Shown in pieces: positions 16,399 to 29,783 of a stretch of 64,000 bases of DNA. Position numbers and translations under genes: made by a program. The notes under the pieces were generated by a model. It saw only the letters and a program-made list of their open reading frames with translations. It did not search any database and was not told the DNA's origin. The DNA is from Clostridiales bacterium (GTDB lineage Bacteria > Bacillota > Clostridia > Oscillospirales > Oscillospiraceae), in contig JAQXKZ010000039.1 in the NCBI GenBank assembly GCA_029010715.1, forward strand, positions 1 to 64,000. Reading direction: 5' to 3'. Numbering within the stretch: position 1 is the stretch's first letter; every line of letters begins with the position of its first letter.

Positions 16399-16426
16399 TT
16401 GACAAGCTGAAAAAACCTGTTATACT
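16399..16426 (+). promoter_or_regulatory. Promoter of the SAM riboswitch-metK transcript
   Basis: A consensus TTGACA and a TATACT separated by 16 bp, ending about 15 bp before the riboswitch P1 helix. Confidence 0.8.
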
Positions 16427-16440
16427 ATATCGGTAAAATT

Positions 16441-16588
16441 GAACACCTTATCAAGAGTGGTGGAGGGAACGGCCCTGTGAAGCCCGGCAACCTGCAATAT
16501 GTAAGGTGCCAAATCCGGCGGTGATACGAAAGATGAGGCTTTGATGCAGAATTTCGCGCTCCGTCGGCCGGCGGGGCGATTTTTATTT
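16441..16588 (+). ncRNA. SAM-I (S-box) riboswitch
   Basis: The sequence carries the S-box core: CTTATCAAGAG, GGTGGAGGGAA, CCCGGCAACC and AGGTGCCAAATCC, ending in GATACGAAAGATGAGG, which closes P1. A terminator follows: CGCTCCGTC (16557-16565) pairs with GGCGGGGCG (16570-16578), then ATTTTTATTT. SAM binding should promote termination and reduce metK expression, a product-feedback loop on S-adenosylmethionine synthesis. Established knowledge: S-boxes in front of metK are common in Firmicutes. Confidence 0.95.
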
Positions 16589-16652
16589 GCCTTATGCGCC
16601 TTTTGAACCGGCTCTGCCGCTCTTGTAAATAAAAACAAGGAGGATCATAAAT

Positions 16653-17834
<1,182 letters not shown>

Positions 17835-17850
17835 ATACTGGAGCCGTTGC

Positions 17851-17880
17851 GCCCGGACAGTCCGCTTTGACTGTCCGGGC
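17851..17880 (+). terminator. Hairpin after metK
   Basis: A perfect 12-bp stem, GCCCGGACAGTC with its complement, and a 6-nt loop. No strong T-run follows (ATAAAACTT), so termination may be weak or the stem may protect the 3' end. Confidence 0.55.
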
Positions 17881-17884
17881 ATAA

Positions 17885-18265: not shown

Positions 18266-18844
18266 ATGGCAAAAAAGGTTCTGCTGCTCTGCGGCGATTT
18301 TACGGAAGACTATGAAACTATGGTCCCGTTTCAGGCTCTGTCCATGCTCGGCTATCAGGTGGACGCTGTCTGCCCGGACAAGAAGGCCGGCGAGACCGTA
18401 GCCACCGCAGTCCACGATTTTCTGGGCGAACAGACGTACACAGAGCTCAGAGGACACAACTTCGCTCTGACCGCTGATTTCGACGCGGTAAAGACCGAGG
18501 ATTACCTGGGCCTGTTTATTACCGGCGGCCGCGCACCCGAATACATTCGCCTCAACGCGCGCGTGCTCGAGATCGTCAGGGAGTTCTTTGCTGAGGGCAA
18601 GCCCGTTGCGGCCATCTGCCACGGCCCGCAGGTGCTGGCCGCGGCCGGCGTGCTCAAGGGCTATAAGGCTACTGCCTATCCTGCAGTCGGCCCCGATGTG
18701 ACGATGGCCGGCGGCGAGTTCGTACCTGCCGATGTTACCGAGGCTGTCGTGGACCGCAATCTGGTCACCGCCCCTGCGTGGCCCGGAGATACCGCGATAT
18801 GCCGCGAGTTTGCAAAGCTCCTGGGAGCAAAGATAGAGATCTGA
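18266..18844 (+). CDS. DJ-1/PfpI family protein
   Basis: A 192-residue flavodoxin-like class I glutamine-amidotransferase-fold protein. The nucleophile elbow is [13 protein letters not shown] (Cys) and the [10 protein letters not shown] loop is characteristic of the PfpI branch. Family members act as intracellular cysteine peptidases, deglycases or glyoxalase III-like enzymes that repair aldehyde damage; which applies here is unknown. The start at 18266 follows AGGAGG, and the longer ORF-track version runs into the promoter. Convergent with the MFS gene, with which it shares a bidirectional terminator. Confidence 0.9.
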
Positions 18845-18861
18845 TAAAACCTGAAACCTGC

Positions 18862-18896
18862 AAAAGGACCGCACCGGAAGGCGCGGTCCTTTTCTG
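18862..18896. terminator. Bidirectional terminator, left copy of a matched pair
   Basis: AAAAGGACCGC pairs with GCGGTCCTTTT around a CCGGAAGG loop. Its left arm and first loop bases (AAAGGACCGCACC) are identical to those of the terminator at 25724-25757, which follows the paralogous MFS gene on the other side of the module. Confidence 0.85.
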
Positions 18897-18904
18897 TCTG
18901 ACCG

Positions 18905-20164
18905 TTACGCCTGGAGCTCCCTTTCCACAGCTTTACGGCACAGCCTGTCGGCATAGCTCAGACACACTATGGTGAGCAGGCACATTGTAAAGCAGGTAGC
19001 CCAGGCCAGACGGTAAGTCCCCGTCAGGTCGTAGATGAGCGCAATCACCGGGCTTCCCAAAACCATGCCCAGCATGCAGAAGCTATAGACATAGCCGAAG
19101 ATTGTCCCGTAGTCTTTCGTGCCGAAGAGAGCCGCCGTGACCACGGAGGGCGCCACGGTTCCGTTGGTTATGCCTACCGAAAAGCAGCCGGCCATTATCC
19201 ACATCATGCTCTCGTTCCCGTTGGTCTGCAGCAGGAGAAAGGAGACTGCATGAAAGCTCATCACGACGATATTGGCGATTTTTGCCCCCATGCGGTCATA
19301 CATCCAGCCGAGGCAGATCTTTGCCGGAGTCAGCAGGAGAAGGAAAAATGAAATCAGTGCGTTCGAGAAGGCGGGGTTATACACGTCCGTAAGGTGTATC
19401 GACAGATGCGCGAGGCTGCCGTAGCCCACAAAGGATACGGATAACATGCCGATCAGGTAAATATAAAAGAAGGGCTGACGCTTCAGTTCGCCGAGGGGTA
19501 TGTTCGCCTCCGGATCCTGAGCACCGGGAGCGTGTGCGTCGGGGCTTCCGTTCAGGCCGCAGGGAAGGTCGTCTGTCCGTTCCGGGCACGGCTGCATCAG
19601 CAGCAGCGCAACCGGGACCTCTATGACTATCATGGCGAGCCCAAACACGAGGAACCCGGCTCTCCAGCCATGCTGGCTGATGAGCTTTGTCAGAACAGGA
19701 GTGATTATGGAGCCGCCTATGCCCGAGCCGGCAAGCGCGATGCTCAACGCGAGGCCCCTGTGTTCCCTGAAGCGGTTTACGAGGATAATCGACACCGGCA
19801 TAGAGGCGGCACCGCAGGAGAATACACCGACGAACACGGCGCTTATATACATGTGATATATGTTTTGCGCGAAGGAATAGCTGGCATAGGAGAGCCCCAT
19901 GCAAACTATGCACAGGATAAATATCCTGCGTGTATACGCTGACTTTCCCAGCAGAGTGCCCAATGTCGGGGCGAGTACCGCCGTGGCTATGGCTACAAGA
20001 CTTGTACACAGACTGTATGTAGTCCTCGAGATGCCCATATCCTCCGTAACGGGGATCATGAACAGACTGAAGCAGGTCTGTATCATGGAATGGAGAAGCG
20101 CCATTATGAGAAAACCGCCCAACACAGTGAGCCATGCCCGGCCTTGCCTGATGTCCAGATTCAT
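18905..20164 (-). CDS. MFS transporter, OFA (oxalate/formate antiporter-like) family, copy A
   Basis: A 419-residue, 12-helix transporter. Its N-terminal GGFLIMALLHSMIQTCFSLF is nearly the same as in the second MFS gene (24399-25682), and matching runs continue through FSCGAASMPVSII and the final CLSYAD segment, so the two are close paralogues. OFA-type proteins exchange small organic anions, but the substrate here is unknown. It is the last gene of a minus-strand operon with the sensor kinase and response regulator, overlapping the regulator stop by 4 bp. This suggests it is either regulated by the system or helps sense its ligand. Confidence 0.85.
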   Translation of the reverse strand: MNLDIRQGRAWLTVLGGFLIMALLHSMIQTCFSLFMIPVTEDMGISRTTYSLCTSLVAIATAVLAPTLGTLLGKSAYTRRIFILCIVCMGLSYASYSFAQNIYHMYISAVFVGVFSCGAASMPVSIILVNRFREHRGLALSIALAGSGIGGSIITPVLTKLISQHGWRAGFLVFGLAMIVIEVPVALLLMQPCPERTDDLPCGLNGSPDAHAPGAQDPEANIPLGELKRQPFFYIYLIGMLSVSFVGYGSLAHLSIHLTDVYNPAFSNALISFFLLLLTPAKICLGWMYDRMGAKIANIVVMSFHAVSFLLLQTNGNESMMWIMAGCFSVGITNGTVAPSVVTAALFGTKDYGTIFGYVYSFCMLGMVLGSPVIALIYDLTGTYRLAWATCFTMCLLTIVCLSYADRLCRKAVERELQA

Positions 20165-20952
20165 TCGTGCCTTCCCGTCTCCGCTCTGAGCCTTGCCGAT
20201 TCGCCCTCGGCCCAGCTGTATTCCTGCATGAATTCCCCTGAGAAGAGGCTCCGCCTGCCTCTCAGACAGCGGTAGTAGTCGCAGTTCTCTTCGGGTATAT
20301 CCACGCGTATTTTGCCGTATTCCGTTTTAAGTATGTCCTCTATGCCGAGCTCCGAGAGAGTTTGCCTGAGCCTTGTGAGTATCACGCGGTAATGCGATTT
20401 GCTTGACTTCTCATCTATGTCACCGAACAGATCGTATACGAGCGTGCCTATGTCGACCCAGCTCCCGCGATGCAGCACCAGATATGCCAGAAGCTCCTTG
20501 GCGCGCTTGGAATGAAAAACAACCGGCTTTCCCGAGACGAGCAGATCGAAACGCGGGAAACAGCGGACCTCGAAGCCGCCGCGCTTTGCAATGCTCAGCA
20601 TATGCTCCGCCCGATCCAGTACGCGGACAAGCTGCGCGCGGTCGAAGGGCTTGAGTATGTACGCGACGGCATCGGTGCCCCAGGCGTCCATAGCGTACTG
20701 GCTGTAAGCGGTCACAAAAACTATGAGCGGAGGATTAGGCAGAGCCTCGACGGCGTTTGCAAAGTCGATCCCGTTCATGTCAGGCATTTCAACGTCGACA
20801 AAGGCCAAATCGACCTGTACATGCCTGAGATACTCAAGCGCGTCTACAGCGTTCGAAAACGAGGCGACGAGCTCCGTGCCCTCCGTGCCCTCAAGCATTA
20901 TGCGCATCAGATTGAGAGGGCTTGCTTCATCGTCGATCGCGATGATTCTCAT
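20161..20952 (-). CDS. Response regulator with SARP-like DNA-binding output domain
   Basis: A 263-residue regulator. The receiver domain (1-120) has the acidic pair DD at 7-8, phospho-acceptor Asp53 in FVDVEMPD and the conserved lysine in YILKPF. The output half (~130-263) is not LytTR: it reads as a winged helix of the OmpR/SARP kind (SKRAKELLAYLVLHRGSWV and KSHYRVILTRLRQTLSELG) with a short BTAD-like tail. It is translationally coupled on both sides by 4-bp overlaps (kinase upstream, MFS downstream). Likely targets are this operon and the divergent amidohydrolase-MFS genes. Confidence 0.88.
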   Translation of the reverse strand: MRIIAIDDEASPLNLMRIMLEGTEGTELVASFSNAVDALEYLRHVQVDLAFVDVEMPDMNGIDFANAVEALPNPPLIVFVTAYSQYAMDAWGTDAVAYILKPFDRAQLVRVLDRAEHMLSIAKRGGFEVRCFPRFDLLVSGKPVVFHSKRAKELLAYLVLHRGSWVDIGTLVYDLFGDIDEKSSKSHYRVILTRLRQTLSELGIEDILKTEYGKIRVDIPEENCDYYRCLRGRRSLFSGEFMQEYSWAEGESARLRAETGRHE

Positions 20953-22802
20953 GTACGAGCTCCTTTCCCGCTCTTTGGCAGGGGAATCGAAATCAATACC
21001 TCCGTGCCCCTGCCAATCGTGCTGTTTATCTCTACACTGCCGCTTAACAGGCTCTCTATCCTGAAGCGGCAGTTTTCTATTCCGCTGCCCATACTCATCG
21101 GGGTCACGGATTTGGTGTCGAAGCCTACTCCGTTGTCACTGACCGTTATGCGGATACAGCGCTCGGCCTTCCGGACGCTCAGCTTTACTGTACCGCCGCC
21201 CGAAGGTGATTTGCGCAGACCGTGGTGTACGGCGTTTTCCACGAGGGTTTGTATAGAAAGCGGCGGTATAAGAAAATCCTCCGTCTCTATATCTGTCTCA
21301 AGATTGATCTTGTCCTCGAAGCGCAGCTTCTGCAGGGCCATATACTCGTCGATGCTGCGCAGCTCGTCCGAGAAGGGGACAAGCTTTTCATACTTGTTGA
21401 AGTCCACGCGCCGGCGCAGGAAGGAGGAGAACATGACGACAGCGTCTGCAGCTTTCTGTGGGTCGGTATAGCACAGCTCCTGTATCATAGTAAGCGTATT
21501 GTACTGAAAATGCGGCTGTATCTGGCTCGTGAGATAGGCAATCTCCGCGTTCATGAGTTTTTCCTTTGCTTCGCTTTCACGGGCCGCCGCCTCTTCGATC
21601 TTTGCAAAGCTCAGGGCCCAGAAGTTCGCATACGACATTATCGCGCAGAGCAGGGACAGCGGGAGCACGATGTAGGCCCCGTGCAGTACATGCTGCGAGG
21701 AATTGACGGCAGTCACGGCTATGCCTACGCCTATCAGAACCGTTGCGCCGGATACCCAGACAAGACCCGTGCCGCTTTTGGCGTTGATAGCGGTGCAGAT
21801 GATCTGGTATACGACAAAGACCGCGGAGAGGGTTATTATGAGTATATCCATGTCAAAATACGCACCGATGAAAAGGCGCAGCGCGATCGCCAAAAACAGC
21901 GCGCAGGTGATCGGCCAGGCTATGCGCCGGTCATATATTTCCGGAAAAATGGATATCTGCAGCTTCACCGCCGTGAGGCCAAGCGCTACAGCCACGACAG
22001 AAACGGCGATGTGCAGCTGCTCAAAGGGAATATATTCGTAAAGCGCGCTTGTGGCGCTTGACATTTCGTAATTCGCGCTCAGATAGAAGAGTCCGATAAG
22101 GATAAAGGAGCGGGAAAAAAGATAGAAGAGCCAGCGCTCGCGCAGTTTTCTCAAAAGCATCATGCCGAAAAGAAAGGCCGTGCTGAAGCCTCCCAGAGAA
22201 AGCATCCATATACTGCTGGAAAGCTCCTTGTACTGACTGTAGCATTCCTCTGTATAGAGCCAGGGACAGGCGTAAACACCAGTGAGCCAGTCGGAGCTGA
22301 CCTCCAGGACGATTTCACAGCTGCTGCCGCTGCAGATTACAGCGGCTTCCCGCATAGAGCAGTCCCGTCTCCCGCCCGCCAGGATCCCGTCCACATAGAT
22401 ACGCAGGCTCGGGGATACTCCGCTGAAATACAGAGTCAGAGGCTCGTCCGGGACGTCCTCGAGAACGATACGGTAGCTTGCCTTGCCATTTCCGCCCCAG
22501 GCGTCTTTGTCGAACATGCTCCAGTCCATTGGGAGATACTGGAGGTGATCGGGCGGCCCGGAGGAGCTGTCAGATATTATATGTACGCCCGCATAGTATT
22601 CCCAGAGTGTTTTTATGGGAAGCTTGCCCTGGGAGAGGAGCTGGTCGGAATTAACATGAAATATCTCGGTGACGTCTGAGAGCATCTTTTCGCGCCGGCT
22701 GTCATAGAAGGCGGAAAGCAGCGCCCCGACAAATATGGCGATAAGGCAGAATACGCATATAAGGCATACTATTACGTCTGTGTCCTTAAAGCTTTTGACC
22801 AT
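20949..22802 (-). CDS. Sensor histidine kinase, LytS/YesM-type catalytic domain with 7TM region
   Basis: A 617-residue membrane sensor. One N-terminal helix (~9-32) is followed by a ~160-residue extracytoplasmic domain with a beta-sandwich character, then about seven further helices (~197-400), an arrangement resembling 7TM-DISM receptors. The phospho-acceptor is His431 in SQIQPHFQYNTL (PF06580 type; QYN instead of the usual LYN). The ATPase domain has LVENAVHHG (N box), DNGVGFD (G1) and GSGIEN (G2). First gene of the kinase-regulator-MFS operon. The ligand is probably small and perceived outside the cell; its identity is unknown. Confidence 0.9.
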   Translation of the reverse strand: MVKSFKDTDVIVCLICVFCLIAIFVGALLSAFYDSRREKMLSDVTEIFHVNSDQLLSQGKLPIKTLWEYYAGVHIISDSSSGPPDHLQYLPMDWSMFDKDAWGGNGKASYRIVLEDVPDEPLTLYFSGVSPSLRIYVDGILAGGRRDCSMREAAVICSGSSCEIVLEVSSDWLTGVYACPWLYTEECYSQYKELSSSIWMLSLGGFSTAFLFGMMLLRKLRERWLFYLFSRSFILIGLFYLSANYEMSSATSALYEYIPFEQLHIAVSVVAVALGLTAVKLQISIFPEIYDRRIAWPITCALFLAIALRLFIGAYFDMDILIITLSAVFVVYQIICTAINAKSGTGLVWVSGATVLIGVGIAVTAVNSSQHVLHGAYIVLPLSLLCAIMSYANFWALSFAKIEEAAARESEAKEKLMNAEIAYLTSQIQPHFQYNTLTMIQELCYTDPQKAADAVVMFSSFLRRRVDFNKYEKLVPFSDELRSIDEYMALQKLRFEDKINLETDIETEDFLIPPLSIQTLVENAVHHGLRKSPSGGGTVKLSVRKAERCIRITVSDNGVGFDTKSVTPMSMGSGIENCRFRIESLLSGSVEINSTIGRGTEVLISIPLPKSGKGART

Positions 22803-23147
22803 GGCGACCTCTGCAAAAGTGTAATGATTTATAATTCTACGTTTAGTATAACACGTGTATCGTTACAAGAGCGCTACATTGAACAAAAACGGCAGTGTAC
22901 ACAAAAAAATATATAATAAAGCAGCAAAACGACGGATTTGGGCGCATATGTGCGCCGGAAAATTGGAAGCTGAGAAGCGAAAACCTCTTGTCAAAATGCC
23001 CAAACAGCTAAAAAAACCACGTTTTTTCGCAAAAACAGAGTTGTGTTTCTGTAACGATGATGTTATGTGACAGGTGCTACGATTAACACAGTTTACAGGC
23101 ATTTCGCAATAAGCCTTATGTACGGAAAAAAATCAGGGAGGAAAACT
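22803..23147. promoter_or_regulatory. Divergent regulatory region of the two-component module
   Basis: A 345-bp A/T-rich region without a convincing gene (the 71-residue ORF here is lysine-rich filler). It holds two exact inverted 9-mers, ATCGTTACA at 22859-22867 beside the kinase gene and TGTAACGAT at 23050-23058 beside the amidohydrolase gene, plus the palindromes ACACGTGT and GTGTACAC. A TATACT read on the minus strand lies near 22850. These are candidate binding sites for the SARP-type regulator. Confidence 0.45.
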
Positions 23148-24374
23148 ATGGCGAAAGTAATCAAATGCGGCAAGCTGTTTGACGCCGTTGACGGAAAAGT
23201 GAAGCTGAACAAGCTGATTTTCATCGAGGGCAACACAATCACACGCGTGGAAGATCAGGGAAACTGGAAACCGGCAGCGGGGGATGAGGTCATAGATCTC
23301 AGCGAACGCTTCGTTATGCCCGGACTTATCGACACGCACGTTCATCTGGGCTTCAGCGGGAAGCCGGCTATCGTTGAGCTGGCTGAGCCGAACGAGCTTG
23401 TGACCGTGAAGGGAATAAAGAACGCCCAGGACGATCTTATGGGCGGCTTTACGACCGTCAGGGATGAGGGATTCCCCTCGCTCATGGGCAGCCAGGCTAT
23501 AAGAGACGGTATCAATCAGGGGCTTGTCTGGGGACCGAGAGTGTTCTCAAGCGCGACCTTTGTCACCCAGACCGGCGGCCACCTCGCGGTAAACTATCCG
23601 CAGGACCGCTTCGGCCAGCAGACCTTTAAGCCCGTGGGCACTGCCGACGGCCCCACGGAGGTGCGCACAGCCTGCCGCGCGATGCTCAAGGCCGGAGCCG
23701 ACCAGATAAAGATCATGGCCACCGGAGGCGTGCTCAGCAACAGCGGCGGCGTCGGAGAGCAGAATATGAGCTATGACGAGATCGTCGCGGCGGTCGAGGT
23801 AGGACGGATGCATAACCGCCTTGTCTCCTGCCATGCCCACGGTACCGCCGGCATTACGGCGGCTGCGAAGGCAGGCGTTTCATCCATTGAGCACTGCACC
23901 ATGGTAGACGATGAGGGCATTGAATACATGCTCGAAAACAAGGTCACCGCCGTGCCGACTTTCAACGTTCTTCGCGTGCTTGCCAACGGCGAGCCGTACG
24001 GCGTTGCACGTTCCTCCGCCCAGAAAGCTGCATTTCTGGTCCCGAAGCATGCCGAAAACATCAGGAAAGCCTATGAGAGAGGCGTGCGTATAGTGTTCGG
24101 TACCGACACAGGTACTCCGCTCGGCCTGCATGGCCGGCAGCATCCTGAGTTCGAACTCATGGTAAACGCCGGCATATCCGCCGAGGATACATTGCTCTCG
24201 GCAACCAGATATGCAGCGGAGATGCTTATGTGGGATGACAGGCTCGGCACCCTCCAGGAGGGTAAGCTTGCCGATATCGTTGCAATAAACGGCGACCCGA
24301 TGCAGGACATGTCCGTTATCTGCAGCGAGAATATAAGCTTCATCATGAAAGATGGCGTCATCTACAAGGGATAA
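23148..24374 (+). CDS. Metal-dependent amidohydrolase (imidazolonepropionase/dipeptidase-like)
   Basis: A 408-residue cytosolic hydrolase of the amidohydrolase superfamily. DTHVHLGF gives the HxH metal pair, IKIMATGG the bridging lysine region, SCHAHG and SIEHCT the further metal histidines, and FGTDTGTPLG the catalytic aspartate. This order matches the Met_dep_hydrolase_A branch, whose characterised members cleave dipeptides or amide-linked compounds. The start at 23148 follows GGGAGG; the ORF-track extension is in the regulatory region. The OFA transporter lies 24 bp downstream, so import of an amide substrate and its cleavage is a reasonable inference. Confidence 0.88.
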   Translation: MAKVIKCGKLFDAVDGKVKLNKLIFIEGNTITRVEDQGNWKPAAGDEVIDLSERFVMPGLIDTHVHLGFSGKPAIVELAEPNELVTVKGIKNAQDDLMGGFTTVRDEGFPSLMGSQAIRDGINQGLVWGPRVFSSATFVTQTGGHLAVNYPQDRFGQQTFKPVGTADGPTEVRTACRAMLKAGADQIKIMATGGVLSNSGGVGEQNMSYDEIVAAVEVGRMHNRLVSCHAHGTAGITAAAKAGVSSIEHCTMVDDEGIEYMLENKVTAVPTFNVLRVLANGEPYGVARSSAQKAAFLVPKHAENIRKAYERGVRIVFGTDTGTPLGLHGRQHPEFELMVNAGISAEDTLLSATRYAAEMLMWDDRLGTLQEGKLADIVAINGDPMQDMSVICSENISFIMKDGVIYKG

Positions 24375-24398
24375 GTTATCTGAGACAAGGAGAAATTT

Positions 24399-25682
24399 AT
24401 GGAAACAAAAAAGAAATCGAAATTCCATTACGGCTTTGTGGTCGTAGTCGGCGGATTCGTTATTATGGCGCTGCTTCATTCAATGCTGCAGACCTGCTTC
24501 AGCCTTTTCCTCGTTCCCGTCACTGAAAAGATGGGAATACTCAGAACCCAGTTCAGCCTCTGCTCCAGCGTCGTGGCCGTGGTCACAATGCTCATGTCAC
24601 CCAAGATGGGCAAGCTGCTCGGCGCGAAAAACACAAGGCTTGTGTTTACCCTGTGCGTGGCCGGCATGGGCCTGTCCTATGCCAGCTATTCCCTCGCGAC
24701 AAAGATATGGCACATGTATATAAGCGCGGCCTTTGTCGGCGCTTTCTCCTGCGGCGCTGTCGCAATGCCGGTTTCTATAATAATCGCCAACTGGTTCAAG
24801 CGCGGCCGCGGCACTGCGATGAGCATAGCTCTGGCCGGCTCCGGTATCGGCGGCACGGTAATTACCCCGATACTTAACAAGATCATTACCAACAGCGGCT
24901 ACAGCCACGCCTTTCTGGTTTTCGGCATCGCGATGATTGTCATTGAGGTTCCCATTGCGTACTTTGTCATGCGTCCAAAGCCGGAGGACATGGGCATGAA
25001 GCCCTATGGCGCCGATGACGAAAACGAGCCGGCAGGCGAGAAAAAGAAAGCCTCAAAGCCGACCGTACAGCTGGACGTCACCCTTGGAGAGCTCAAAAAG
25101 CAGCCGTTCTTCTATGTGTACCTGCTCGGCATATTCGCGATGTGCATCTGCGGCTACGGCAGCCTCGGACAGCTCTCCGCTTCACTTACCGACTCCTACG
25201 GCTCGACGTTTTCCGCGGCGATCGTTTCTTTCTTCCTGCTTGTTCTGACACCTGCAAAGATATCCCTCGGATGGATGTATGATAAGCTGGGGTCCAAGTT
25301 CGGTACCGTGTACGTCATGACTGTGTACGCCGTGGCCTTTGCACTGCTGGCCTTCTTCACGAACAGCCCCGCTGTCATGTATGTGATGGCCGTCCTCTTC
25401 TCCATAGGTATCAGCAGCGGCACCGTCTCCCCCTCCGTAGTTACCGCGGCAACCTTCGGTTCAAAGGATTACGGCGCAATCTTCGGCTTTGTAAACTTCT
25501 TCTGCATGGCGGCCATGGTCGTAGGCAGCCCGTCCATTGCTGCGGTATATGATTTTACCGGTTCTTACCGTATCGCCTGGCTTGCATGTCTCGCGCTTTG
25601 CATTGTCTCCATCATTTGCCTCTCCTATGCGGACGCACGCTGCAGGAAGGTCTTTGCCGACCGCATAGTAAAGGCGGAGTAA
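24399..25682 (+). CDS. MFS transporter, OFA family, copy B
   Basis: A 427-residue, 12-helix transporter closely paralogous to copy A (18905-20164): shared blocks include GGFVIMALLHSMLQTCFSLF, SCGAVAMPVSII and a final CLSYADARCRK. A charged cytoplasmic loop (GEKKKASKPT) separates the two six-helix halves. It sits 24 bp after the amidohydrolase in the same direction, with AAGGAG before the ATG, and is followed by a terminator that matches the one after copy A. It probably imports the amidohydrolase substrate or exports its product. Being in the opposite arm of a mirrored arrangement, it likely arose by duplication. Confidence 0.88.
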   Translation: METKKKSKFHYGFVVVVGGFVIMALLHSMLQTCFSLFLVPVTEKMGILRTQFSLCSSVVAVVTMLMSPKMGKLLGAKNTRLVFTLCVAGMGLSYASYSLATKIWHMYISAAFVGAFSCGAVAMPVSIIIANWFKRGRGTAMSIALAGSGIGGTVITPILNKIITNSGYSHAFLVFGIAMIVIEVPIAYFVMRPKPEDMGMKPYGADDENEPAGEKKKASKPTVQLDVTLGELKKQPFFYVYLLGIFAMCICGYGSLGQLSASLTDSYGSTFSAAIVSFFLLVLTPAKISLGWMYDKLGSKFGTVYVMTVYAVAFALLAFFTNSPAVMYVMAVLFSIGISSGTVSPSVVTAATFGSKDYGAIFGFVNFFCMAAMVVGSPSIAAVYDFTGSYRIAWLACLALCIVSIICLSYADARCRKVFADRIVKAE

Positions 25683-25723
25683 TATTCGATACTTCTCTCA
25701 AAATCCTCATATTCCCAAAGGCG

Positions 25724-25757
25724 AAAGGACCGCACCTTCCGGTGCGGTCCTTTTGCA
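25724..25757. terminator. Bidirectional terminator, right copy of a matched pair
   Basis: A perfect 13-bp stem, AAAGGACCGCACC with GGTGCGGTCCTTT around TTCC, with T/A runs on both sides. It serves both MFS copy B and the convergent polC operon. Confidence 0.9.
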
Positions 25758-25763
25758 GGTTGA

Positions 25764-28700
25764 TCAGAAATCGAAGAGGGTTATCTGGCTCGTATCCGGC
25801 ATATCGCCGAGAGCGCCGATGGTTTTGAGCTGGTCAAGATGGGTCTGGCTGACCTTGGGACAGGCGTGGCTGAGCTCCTCTATCGAGATAAAGTGCGTGC
25901 TCATGTCCTTGCAGCGGGCAAGATCGAGCGCCGCGGTCTCGCCGAGACCGGCGATCGACACGAAGGGGGGACGGAGCTTACCATCCTCGGTTATGAGAAA
26001 CTTCGTGGCGTCGGATTTGTACAGGTCGATGGGGGCGAACTCGAAGCCGCGCATGTTGAACTCGTACACCGCCTCCATCGTGACAAGCAGATCCTCCTCG
26101 TTGGCGGTGAGGGTCGGACGGCGGCGCATCTCGTTGATCTTGCGGCGCACCGCGTCGGCACCGCCGGTCATCATGCCGGCGTCGAAGCCGCCCTTCTGGC
26201 TGCGCCGGTAAAAGTAGGCGCTGTAGAAGGCCAGCGGCAGGTGTACCTTGAACCAGGCTATACGGAAGGCCATCATGACGTAGGCCACGGCGTGGGCCTT
26301 CGGGAAGAGATAGGCGATCTTGCGGCAGGACTCGATATACCAGTCGGGTACGCCCCTGTCGCGCATCTGCTGCTCGGCGTCGTCGGGGAATTTGCCGCTC
26401 TTCTTGACCTTGCCCTTTCGCACTGCCTCCATAGTCTTAAAGGCAAGGGACGGCTCTATGCCGACGGAAATCAGCTGGATCATGATATCGTCGCGGCAGC
26501 CGACAGTCTCGTTAACGGTGGCGACCTTGTTGACGATAAGGTCGCGGATGTTGCCGGCCCAGACGTCGGTGCCGTGGGAGAAGCCGGAAAGCCGTATCAG
26601 GGTATCGAACTGCCGGGGCTGGGTGTCGACAAGCATCTGGCGCGTGAACGGGGTGCCGAATTCGGGGATACCGATGGTGCCGGTCCTGCCGATGATGGGG
26701 TCGTCGTCCGGCAGGCCAAGCACGGCGGGAGATGTGAATATCGACATTGTATCCGGGTCAGACAGGGATATCAGCTGCGCGTTTACGCGTTTCCCGAGCT
26801 GCTCGGACATGTCCTCCATCATACGGATCATCGTCGGGTCATCGTGGCCGAGCTCATCGAGCTTGAGGAGGTTTGCCTCCATGCAGTGATATTCAAAATG
26901 CGTGGTTATGATGTCGCTGTTCGGGTCGTCCGCCGGGTGCTGGACAGGGCAGAAGTCTGTCACATCCATATCCTGCGGAATGACGACAAGGCCGCCGGGG
27001 TGCTGGCCGGTCGTGCGCTTGATGCCGACAAGGCCCTGGGCGAGACGGTTTTCCTCGGCTTTGGTGGCTGTGGCGTTGTGCTCCTCGAGGTATTTTTTGA
27101 CATAGCCGTAGGCAGTCTTTTCGGCCAGCGTGCCAATGGTCCCGGCGCGGAAAACGTGGTCGGAGCCGAAAAGAACCTCTGTGTATTTATGCGCCTTGGC
27201 CTGATATTCACCGGAGAAGTTCAGGTCGATATCGGGAGTTTTTTCATTACCGGGAAAGCCCAGGAAAGTCTCAAAGGGGATATCAAAACCGTCCCGGCGC
27301 ATACGTGTGCCGCACTCCGGACAATCTTTCTCGGGCATGTCCGCGCCGCAGCCGTAGCTGCCGTCGGTTATGAACTCGCTGTGACAGCACCTGGGGCAGA
27401 CATAGTGCGGCGGGAGGGAGTTGACCTCGGTGATGCCGGACATGTAAGCCACTATTGACGAGCCGACGCTGCCGCGGCTGCCGACCAGATAGCCGTGTTC
27501 AAGAGAATTCTGAACAAGCTTCTGGGCGGACATGTATATGACGTCGTAGCTGTGGTCGAGTATGGTGTTGAGCTCGATATCCACGCGCTCCTGCACGATC
27601 TTCGGCGGATTTTCGCCGTAGATGCGGTGCATCTTCGTGTAGACCAGGTTCTTGAGATCTTCCGCCGAGTTTTCGATCTTCGGCGGAAACAGCTCCCTGG
27701 GCAGCAGCTGTATCGGCTCGATCTGGTCGGCGATGGCGCGCGTGTTGGTGACGACGACCTCTTTGGCCGTTTCCTCGCCGAGATAGGCAAACTCCGCGAG
27801 CATCTCGTCCGTCGTGCGGAAGTATATCGGGCAGTCACGGTCGGCGTCGGAGAATTTCTTGGCGGACTGAAGTATCTTGCGGTACTGCTCGTCCTCCGGA
27901 TCGAGAAAGTGCACGTCGGAAGCGGCAATGACGGGTTTGCCAAGCTCGCGGCCCAGCTCGAGGATGGTGCGGTTGTAGTCCTGCAGCACCCTGACGTCGC
28001 TGACGGCGCCGTTATCGACGAGGAAGCCGTTGTTGCAGATGGGCTGAATCTCCAGATAATCGTAAAAGGAGGCTATCCTTTTGAGCTCCTTATGGCTTGC
28101 GCCCTTCATGACCGCGCCGTAGAGTTCGCCCATACCGCAGGCAGATCCTACAAGTATGCCCTCGCGGTGCTGGATAAGCAGGCTCTTGGGGATGGTGGGC
28201 GTGCGGTGGAAGTATTTGAGGTATGACTGGGAGATCATCTCATAGAGATTCTTCAGGCCCCTGCGGTTCTTCACCAGAAGTATCATGTGGTAGCTCTTGG
28301 CCACGTCGGTCCGGCGCAGGGAGTGGTAGATGGTTTCAATATCGTCGACGGTCGCGGCGCCCTGCCGGGTGAGCATGGGCAGAAACTTGCCCATCATGCG
28401 CGCAACGACCATGGCGTCGTCGGACGCGCGGTGATGGTTGAACTGCGGCAGGCCGAGGTGGTTGGAGACTATATCGAGCTTGAAGCGCTTCAGCTCGGGC
28501 AGCAGCGCCTGAGACAGGGCCAGCGTATCAATGAAAACCGGCGAAAACTTCAGCCCCTGGCGGTTGGCCGCCGCGGTCATGAAGCCGACGTCAAAGTGTG
28601 CATTATGCGCAATGATGGGCCGGTCGCCGATGAAGTCCATGAACATCTGCATGGCTTCCCTTTCCTTCGGCGCGCCGGCGACGTCGCTGTCGCGGATACC

Positions 28701-29783
28701 TGTGAGCTGGGTTATGTCGGGCGGGATATGACGCTCCGGGTCGACAAAGGTGTTGAATACCTTTTTAATCTCGGTACCGGAGAAGATGATCGCGCCAATC
28801 TCGGTCATGCGGTCGTTCATCGCGTTGAGCCCGGTGGTCTCGATGTCGAAGGCGACAAACTCGGTGTCGAGCGGAAGCCTGCTCTTGCCGATAACGGCGC
28901 TGTTGCCGTCCATGTCGTTAACAAAGTAGCACTCCTCGCCGTAGATGATCTTGACTTTATATTTGTCGCCGGCCTTCCACATGTCCGGAAAAGCCTGAGC
29001 GACACCGTGGTCGGTGACCGCGATGGCGGGCATGCCCCAGTAGGCCGCGCGTTCGACAATGGCTTCGGGATCCGTCAGCGCGTCAAGCGCCGAAAAACGG
29101 GTGTGCATATGCAGCTCGACACGCTTCTCGGGGGCGTTGTCGGGACGGATATAGCGCTTGCCCTTCATTATGCTGCGCGGGTCGATGACCATATCGTCAT
29201 CGTATTTCGAATATATTACCTCGCCCTGAACTATGACGTGATCGCCTTTTTTGATCTTGTCTATCACGCTCCGGTCGTCCTCGGAACGCAGAAAGCGCGA
29301 GACGCGGATGGAGTTTGTGCGGTCGGTTATATCAAAGCAGAGCACGGCGCTGCCGCGCTTGGCGAGCGTGCGGCTCGTGACGTCGACCACATCGCCCTCG
29401 ACGGTGACTCTGCCTGACTCGAGCGTGAGCGTGTTCATCGGGACGGGGTGCTGCTTTATGGCCCTGCCCATGAGCACGTCGCCCTGCGGCCTGCCGCCGG
29501 ACGGCGCGGAGACCCGGACGGCGGGAGAAGAGGCGCGCTGCAGCCGCGGATAGTCGGGGACAATGCCGACAGAGCTCAGGCCGTAATCGGACCTGAGCCT
29601 GGCGCTTATGGAGCTTATATCCACCGGAGAGGGCATCGAGGCGAACCACGCGCAGATGCTCATAGACATTTCAGCCGTGTCCACCCGGACATCGGTCACG
29701 TAGGCCCTGTCCAGCCCGCCGGCCGAGCCGGCCATATCGGCGCAGCCCGGAAATATGGTCAGAAATGGGGTATGCTCGCTCAT
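25764..29783 (-). CDS. polC: DNA polymerase III alpha subunit, Gram-positive PolC type
   Basis: A 1339-residue replicative polymerase with built-in proofreading. Domains in order: a short divergent N-terminus, OB fold (~125-205), first half of the PHP domain (VELHMHTRFSALDAL, ~222), inserted DEDDh exonuclease (FDIETTG, 312-318), rest of PHP, then the polymerase palm with PDIDLNFSGEYQAKAH, a zinc-ribbon-like segment CPRCCHSEF...CPECGTRM, and a C-terminal region ending in an LFDF-type clamp-binding peptide. Somewhat shorter than Bacillus PolC (about 1440), mainly at the N-terminus. The start overlaps the ispG stop by 4 bp; last gene of the operon. Confidence 0.97.
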   Translation of the reverse strand: MSEHTPFLTIFPGCADMAGSAGGLDRAYVTDVRVDTAEMSMSICAWFASMPSPVDISSISARLRSDYGLSSVGIVPDYPRLQRASSPAVRVSAPSGGRPQGDVLMGRAIKQHPVPMNTLTLESGRVTVEGDVVDVTSRTLAKRGSAVLCFDITDRTNSIRVSRFLRSEDDRSVIDKIKKGDHVIVQGEVIYSKYDDDMVIDPRSIMKGKRYIRPDNAPEKRVELHMHTRFSALDALTDPEAIVERAAYWGMPAIAVTDHGVAQAFPDMWKAGDKYKVKIIYGEECYFVNDMDGNSAVIGKSRLPLDTEFVAFDIETTGLNAMNDRMTEIGAIIFSGTEIKKVFNTFVDPERHIPPDITQLTGIRDSDVAGAPKEREAMQMFMDFIGDRPIIAHNAHFDVGFMTAAANRQGLKFSPVFIDTLALSQALLPELKRFKLDIVSNHLGLPQFNHHRASDDAMVVARMMGKFLPMLTRQGAATVDDIETIYHSLRRTDVAKSYHMILLVKNRRGLKNLYEMISQSYLKYFHRTPTIPKSLLIQHREGILVGSACGMGELYGAVMKGASHKELKRIASFYDYLEIQPICNNGFLVDNGAVSDVRVLQDYNRTILELGRELGKPVIAASDVHFLDPEDEQYRKILQSAKKFSDADRDCPIYFRTTDEMLAEFAYLGEETAKEVVVTNTRAIADQIEPIQLLPRELFPPKIENSAEDLKNLVYTKMHRIYGENPPKIVQERVDIELNTILDHSYDVIYMSAQKLVQNSLEHGYLVGSRGSVGSSIVAYMSGITEVNSLPPHYVCPRCCHSEFITDGSYGCGADMPEKDCPECGTRMRRDGFDIPFETFLGFPGNEKTPDIDLNFSGEYQAKAHKYTEVLFGSDHVFRAGTIGTLAEKTAYGYVKKYLEEHNATATKAEENRLAQGLVGIKRTTGQHPGGLVVIPQDMDVTDFCPVQHPADDPNSDIITTHFEYHCMEANLLKLDELGHDDPTMIRMMEDMSEQLGKRVNAQLISLSDPDTMSIFTSPAVLGLPDDDPIIGRTGTIGIPEFGTPFTRQMLVDTQPRQFDTLIRLSGFSHGTDVWAGNIRDLIVNKVATVNETVGCRDDIMIQLISVGIEPSLAFKTMEAVRKGKVKKSGKFPDDAEQQMRDRGVPDWYIESCRKIAYLFPKAHAVAYVMMAFRIAWFKVHLPLAFYSAYFYRRSQKGGFDAGMMTGGADAVRRKINEMRRRPTLTANEEDLLVTMEAVYEFNMRGFEFAPIDLYKSDATKFLITEDGKLRPPFVSIAGLGETAALDLARCKDMSTHFISIEELSHACPKVSQTHLDQLKTIGALGDMPDTSQITLFDF

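Follow-up and report, generated by a model that had tools for sequence, protein, structure and literature searches.

We analyzed a 64,000-nt stretch of the Clostridiales bacterium assembly GCA_029010715.1 (contig JAQXKZ010000039.1, positions 1 to 64,000; hereafter the window), in which two transporters of the major facilitator superfamily (MFS-A and MFS-B), a histidine kinase, a response regulator and an amidohydrolase are encoded between the host genes pfpI and polC. These five genes probably constitute a horizontally acquired cassette, controlled by a two-component system (TCS), for the uptake and hydrolysis of a nutrient that would be an N-acyl amino acid or a dipeptide. The parts are familiar but their combination is new, and no paper was found in a literature search that combined formate antiporter with two-component system and amidohydrolase. 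The genes are arranged in two divergent arms, with MFS-A preceded by the regulator and the kinase on one side and the amidohydrolase followed by MFS-B on the other. The open reading frames and family matches bear out the anatomy proposed in an initial annotation made from the sequence alone. The features of the locus are as follows:

18266-18844 (+): flanking host gene pfpI, PfpI/DJ-1 family (TIGR01382, 172 bits, above its cutoff)
18855-18892: left copy of a 38-nt inverted repeat, a bidirectional terminator hairpin between the convergent genes pfpI and MFS-A
18905-20164 (-): MFS-A, the fast-evolving paralogue of the two OFA-like MFS transporters, in one operon with the kinase and the regulator (PF07690, 8e-41)
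20161-20952 (-): response regulator with an OmpR/SARP-like winged-helix C-terminus (PF00072, 5.5e-21)
20949-22802 (-): LytS-type histidine kinase with His_kinase and HATPase_c domains (PF06580, 1.9e-20; PF02518, 1.6e-10)
22803-23147: divergent promoter region between the kinase and amidohydrolase genes
23148-24374 (+): amidohydrolase, M38 / Xaa-Pro dipeptidase-like (PF01979, 4.7e-45, 155 bits)
24399-25682 (+): MFS-B, the slow-evolving OFA-like MFS transporter, in one operon with the amidohydrolase (PF07690, 3.3e-41)
25724-25761: right copy of the 38-nt inverted repeat, a bidirectional terminator hairpin between the convergent genes MFS-B and polC
25764-29783 (-): flanking host gene polC

The overlaps of 4 nt between the kinase and regulator genes and between the regulator and MFS-A genes suggest that these three genes share one transcript; on the other arm, 24 nt separate the amidohydrolase gene from MFS-B. 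Judging from this anatomy, the 7TM-type kinase would sense an extracellular small molecule and phosphorylate the winged-helix regulator, which would switch on both divergent operons from the region 22803-23147. MFS-B would then import an N-acyl amino acid or a dipeptide-like amide, perhaps in exchange for a product, like other OFA carriers. The amide bond of the imported substrate would be cut by the binuclear metallo-amidohydrolase, as expected from the family of this enzyme. MFS-A would have arisen by transporter duplication, as the trees below indicate, and would later have been tied to the kinase-regulator operon.

The same gene order was sought in other genomes by scanning the genomes of 84,980 species for the transporter pair, which yielded four loci. 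Two of them (L059 and L062) are contigs of a single metagenome-assembled genome (MAG), Clostridia bacterium SUG1366. L059 contains the N-terminus of the kinase, the amidohydrolase (68% identity) and a transporter with 79% identity to MFS-B, and L062 contains the C-terminus of the kinase, the regulator (53%) and a transporter (about 50%). The two contigs break inside the kinase gene and their ends overlap exactly over 19 nt; once joined, the kinase forms a single open frame of 617 aa, 40% identical to the kinase of the window. Because the contig ends overlap and the kinase frame is intact, the five-gene order is conserved in SUG1366, where both halves co-occur, in line with the initial annotation. 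The third locus (L060, in a Desulfovibrionaceae MAG) harbors only the amidohydrolase and one transporter, and the fourth (L061, in Oscillibacter) only a transporter. This lone OFA-like transporter (L061, 9980-16336) is found near genes for formiminotransferase-cyclodeaminase, DUF1847 and adenine deaminase. A sample of the phylum further provided another Bacillota genome (L157) in which a dCache kinase, a LytTR regulator, an amidohydrolase (58%) and an MFS transporter (45%) form one colinear block. In the amidohydrolase tree, the enzyme of the window falls into a single clade with those of L059, L060 and L157 (100/100). As a separate observation, one family in the order (G052, G483 and G549; loci L067-L079, L136 and L148) presents several OFA-like transporter genes in tandem as well as tandem M38 amidohydrolases, a lineage-specific expansion.

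We further analyzed the evolution of the two transporters. MFS-A and MFS-B are identical at 57% of their residues and are the only close homologues of each other in the 2.0-Mb genome. Both match PF07690 (140-142 bits), but neither reaches the curated cutoffs of the OFA family (TIGR00890, 66-79 bits vs 375; TIGR04259, 60-71 vs 335), and we therefore refer to them as OFA-like only. They also score 130 and 157 bits against the conjugated bile salt transporters (NF038246, CbsT; cutoff of 400 bits); a bile-salt substrate was considered on this basis and rejected, since outgroup OFA proteins score equally. In the phylogenetic trees, MFS-A of the window pairs with the transporter of L062 (support 100/98; 98/96 and 96/97 in smaller trees) and MFS-B with that of L059 (100/99; 100/99 and 100/98), and all four proteins group together (99/93; 85/85 and 81/87 in smaller trees). 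The two transporters are thus sisters rather than members of separate clades, in agreement with their earlier description as close paralogues. Because A pairs with A and B with B across the two genomes, both copies were present before the modules separated, and the duplication can securely be placed before the separation of the window and SUG1366 modules. It likely postdates the split from L060. The alternative of an older duplication followed by the loss of A in L060, tested as a topology grouping L060 with the B-types, was retained in one tree (p-AU 0.069) and rejected in a larger one (p-AU 0.0066).

The two copies have diverged at different rates. With L060 as the outgroup, MFS-A of the window presents 77 unique changes and MFS-B 28 (p 2e-6; relative-rate test), and the corresponding counts in SUG1366 are 91 for the A-type and 40 for the B-type. 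Fifteen sites that are invariant in the B-types and in single-copy relatives are altered in both A-types. The identity between the window and SUG1366 follows the same division into halves: about 50-51% for MFS-A, 53-54% for the regulator and 40% for the kinase, vs 79% for MFS-B and 68% for the amidohydrolase.

These last two values contrast with the 50% identity of PolC between the window and SUG1366 (61% between the window and Oscillibacter), and the cassette has probably been transferred for this reason. Among 60 relatives searched, of which 36 belong to the same genus, none contained a close homologue of the transporters (best identity 35%), which also makes horizontal movement probable; none was found in the class and order samples either. 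The GC-content of the module (0.535-0.572) is below that of its neighbours (0.594-0.603). From these patterns, the cassette seems to have moved between gut-type Clostridia that are only distantly related. No empty site was recognized: the same-genus loci examined carry different genes and unrelated terminators after polC, pfpI is adjacent in none of them, and an insertion junction was not seen. A plasmid search gave a best identity of 34%, and thus nothing to indicate that the cassette is carried on a plasmid. The draft state of the genome (59 contigs; contamination estimate of 1.8%), the low GC-content of the module and the lack of a close homologue in same-genus relatives would also fit a chimeric metagenomic contig carrying the cassette of another organism. 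We consider this highly improbable, as the third-position GC-content of the cassette genes (0.67-0.71) is similar to that of pfpI (0.705), though below that of polC (0.80), and so not extreme, and as the final k-mers of common assemblers exceed 38 nt, the length of the repeat at the cassette borders.

This inverted repeat (18855-18892 and 25724-25761) is identical at 37 of its 38 positions (97%, one mismatch). Across the whole genome, the terminator word AAAGGACCGCACC (or AAAGGACCGCGCC) is present at these two hairpins and at no other site, against an expectation of 0.1 occurrences in the window. A 418-kb sample of the same genome contained 114 terminator-like hairpins, of which just two pairs share at least 13 identical bases, one of them being the cassette pair; with only one other pair equally alike, the match exceeds chance. 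Both hairpins fold well on both strands (for the left one, -22.3 kcal/mol on the + strand and -25.5 kcal/mol on the - strand) and lie between convergent genes, and they can consequently be assigned to pfpI and polC just as well as to the transporters. The word that had been reported as shared by the two terminators is real, but the identity is larger than first described, at 38 nt, and the hairpins end the host genes as well.

The duplication of a transporter-terminator block, which had been proposed from this match, did not stand up to comparison. The repeat is 97% identical whereas the transporters are 57% identical, and the shared sequence does not extend into the transporter genes. The orthologues in SUG1366 are also without such terminators: the hairpin that follows the MFS-B orthologue is a different one, and no hairpin was found by eye at the end of the MFS-A orthologue. 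Since transporters that have diverged to 57% could not be expected to keep a non-coding flank at 97%, the repeat is presumably younger than the transporter duplication. We regard it as improbable that the mirror terminators represent either such a block or the terminal inverted repeats of a mobile element on which the cassette would have arrived. The position of the repeat at the exact borders of a cassette that looks horizontally acquired, and its uniqueness in the genome, are in line with these two readings, but the five genes include no transposase or recombinase, no obvious target-site duplication was seen by eye, and the bidirectional hairpins serve pfpI and polC too. In our reading, a terminator was copied locally and recently, and the resulting repeat is separate from the mechanism of the cassette.

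The ligands of the binuclear site of the amidohydrolase are invariant in the alignment (H64, H66, K188, H229, H249 and D320; HxH, K, H, H, D), and together with the Amidohydro_1 fold they place the enzyme with the M38 dipeptidases and aminoacylases. It scores below the more specific family of M38 Xaa-Pro dipeptidases (NF051886, 332.8 bits vs 500), and its nearest solved structures are 9kov, 8ihq and 2qs8. Relatives in this family cut dipeptides and N-acyl amino acids (PMC11342369), and the enzyme is inferred to hydrolyze one of these classes of compounds, compatible with the amide substrate suggested initially. Relatives that hydrolyze ochratoxin were considered as a further clue and were insufficient to fix the substrate. 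Around the amidohydrolase and transporter genes, an ornithine cyclodeaminase/mu-crystallin gene is present in both L059 (3672-9222) and L060 (6236-8416). The vicinity of L059 also includes a PrpR-type sigma-54 regulator, TRAP DctQM and an ABC ATPase, and that of L060 a D-serine dehydratase-like gene and an X-Pro dipeptidyl-peptidase. These neighbours may hint at amino-acid-derived substrates.

The kinase consists of one N-terminal transmembrane helix, a beta-rich extracellular domain, about seven transmembrane helices and the kinase domain, a layout that would fit a 7TMR-DISM histidine kinase, with a structure model of low confidence (pLDDT 56). Its label as a 7TM-type kinase fits this topology, but no Pfam match to 7TMR-DISM was obtained even at E 5. 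The description of the regulator as SARP-type could not be retained: the sole match behind it is a sub-threshold one of the C-terminus to Trans_reg_C (E 0.0017), and a BTAD match was sought and not found. The receiver of this regulator matches the BtsR profile, and the protein contains no LytTR domain, which sets it apart from the LytTR family (YpdB/BtsR). Upstream of each divergent operon, a 9-nt word (TGTAACGAT) faces the genes (22859-22867 on the - strand and 23050-23058 on the + strand). These are its only copies in the window, and two copies were reached in 1 of 100 shuffles; the word was not seen in L059. It constitutes a weak candidate for the site of the regulator. Pairs of a kinase and a winged-helix regulator are widespread in the order (L105-L133), beside genes for GH2, GH127, clostripain, an MFS sugar carrier and FTHFS. 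The order sample includes relatives of this kinase-regulator pair as well as amidohydrolases of greater distance, but none was found within about 1.5 kb of an OFA-like transporter.

Concerning the role of MFS-A, we lean slightly towards a UhpC-like membrane co-sensor over a second transporter. Its fast divergence and its placement in one operon with the kinase and the regulator favor a role linked to signalling, and the suggested split of the two transporters between sensing or export and uptake is possible. The fuller scenario, in which an OFA-like MFS-A acts with a 7TM-type kinase of Bacillota as a co-sensor similar to UhpC, evolved independently through duplication of the transporter of the cassette itself and carried on a mobile cassette, is put forward tentatively. 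Several observations weigh against our explanation of the cassette. The difference in rate weakens with distant outgroups (MFS-A vs MFS-B of the window with L003, p 0.57), and most conserved polar residues are kept in MFS-A (H27, Q31, E183, K287, D295 and D385), so that it may still transport. The kinase possesses its own extracellular domain and the TCS of L157 is accompanied by a single MFS transporter, which indicates that such systems can generally do without a co-sensor. Moreover, in the sole other complete example of the cassette, the genes are divided between two contigs of a MAG.

It is quite conceivable, if somewhat short of an even chance, that MFS-A is simply another transporter under regulation, which exports a product or differs from MFS-B in affinity or substrate, is induced by the TCS, as YhjX is by YpdAB, and takes no part in sensing. 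The conserved polar and OFA-type positions retained in MFS-A agree with this, a single transporter gene is a common target of LytS-type TCSs (YpdA/YpdB with yhjX, BtsS/BtsR with yjiY; PMC5552118), and the duplicated bile-salt importers CbsT1/CbsT2 are known beside an amide hydrolase (PMC11133329). However, MFS-A diverges faster, in step with the kinase and the regulator and not with the amidohydrolase and MFS-B, and the two transporters sit in different operons in both genomes. It is also unlikely that the two halves are mere neighbours that moved together while regulating and serving different substrates. L060 does carry the amidohydrolase and a transporter without a TCS or a second MFS, and the order does contain related kinase-regulator pairs without an OFA transporter, but the identical five-gene order in two distant genomes, the sister relationship of the two transporters and the independent TCS-amidohydrolase-transporter operon of L157 speak against it. 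The independent pairing of the L157 enzyme and transporter with a different TCS strengthens the link between the sensor and the enzyme and transporter in the proposed uptake cassette.

Elsewhere in the window, a SAM riboswitch (RF00162, 78 bits) was identified at 16445-16539 (+), upstream of metK at 16653-17834 (+). A 485-aa open reading frame on the opposite strand (16425-17882, -) overlies the riboswitch and metK and is probably spurious.

In the Uhp system, the genes of the kinase, the regulator and one MFS paralogue lie together and a second MFS serves as the transporter. The cassette resembles UhpABC-UhpT in combining a kinase, a regulator and one MFS paralogue with a second, presumed transporter, but it differs in its OFA-like rather than OPA-type transporters, its LytS/7TM-type kinase with an extracellular domain, its hydrolase gene and its Bacillota host. 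UhpC interacts with UhpB (PMC5703999). If the co-sensor role is true, the cassette would provide a second example, of independent origin, of a histidine kinase coupled to a transporter paralogue. In Lactobacillus johnsonii, CbsT1/CbsT2 accompany a bile salt hydrolase and CbsT2 is a substrate:product antiporter (PMC11133329). That system likewise places a duplicated pair of MFS transporters next to an amide hydrolase; in contrast to the cassette, its hydrolase is not an M38 enzyme, its transporters are in tandem and a TCS is not described. In E. coli YpdA/YpdB-yhjX and BtsS/BtsR-yjiY, a LytS-type kinase governs a transporter gene, and YhjX is a putative MFS antiporter (PMC5552118). The cassette shares with them a LytS-type kinase beside a transporter gene, but its output domain is OmpR/SARP-like and not LytTR, and the E. 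coli systems are without a hydrolase and have a single transporter. The amidohydrolase matches M38 enzymes such as Sgx9355 (2QS8), Cc2672 (3MTW) and the ADH3 ochratoxin hydrolase (8IHQ) over its full length with all metal ligands, although it remains under the NCBIfam cutoff of the M38 Xaa-Pro dipeptidases (about 333 vs 500 bits). Finally, the L157 operon similarly brings together a kinase, a regulator, an amidohydrolase and an OFA-like transporter, but it is colinear and has one MFS, a dCache kinase and a LytTR regulator. The unduplicated cousin L060, the different-sensor cousin L157 and the orthologous transporter pairs of two genomes constitute a comparison set for the cassette, which represents a concrete candidate for amide catabolism moving between gut-type Clostridia.

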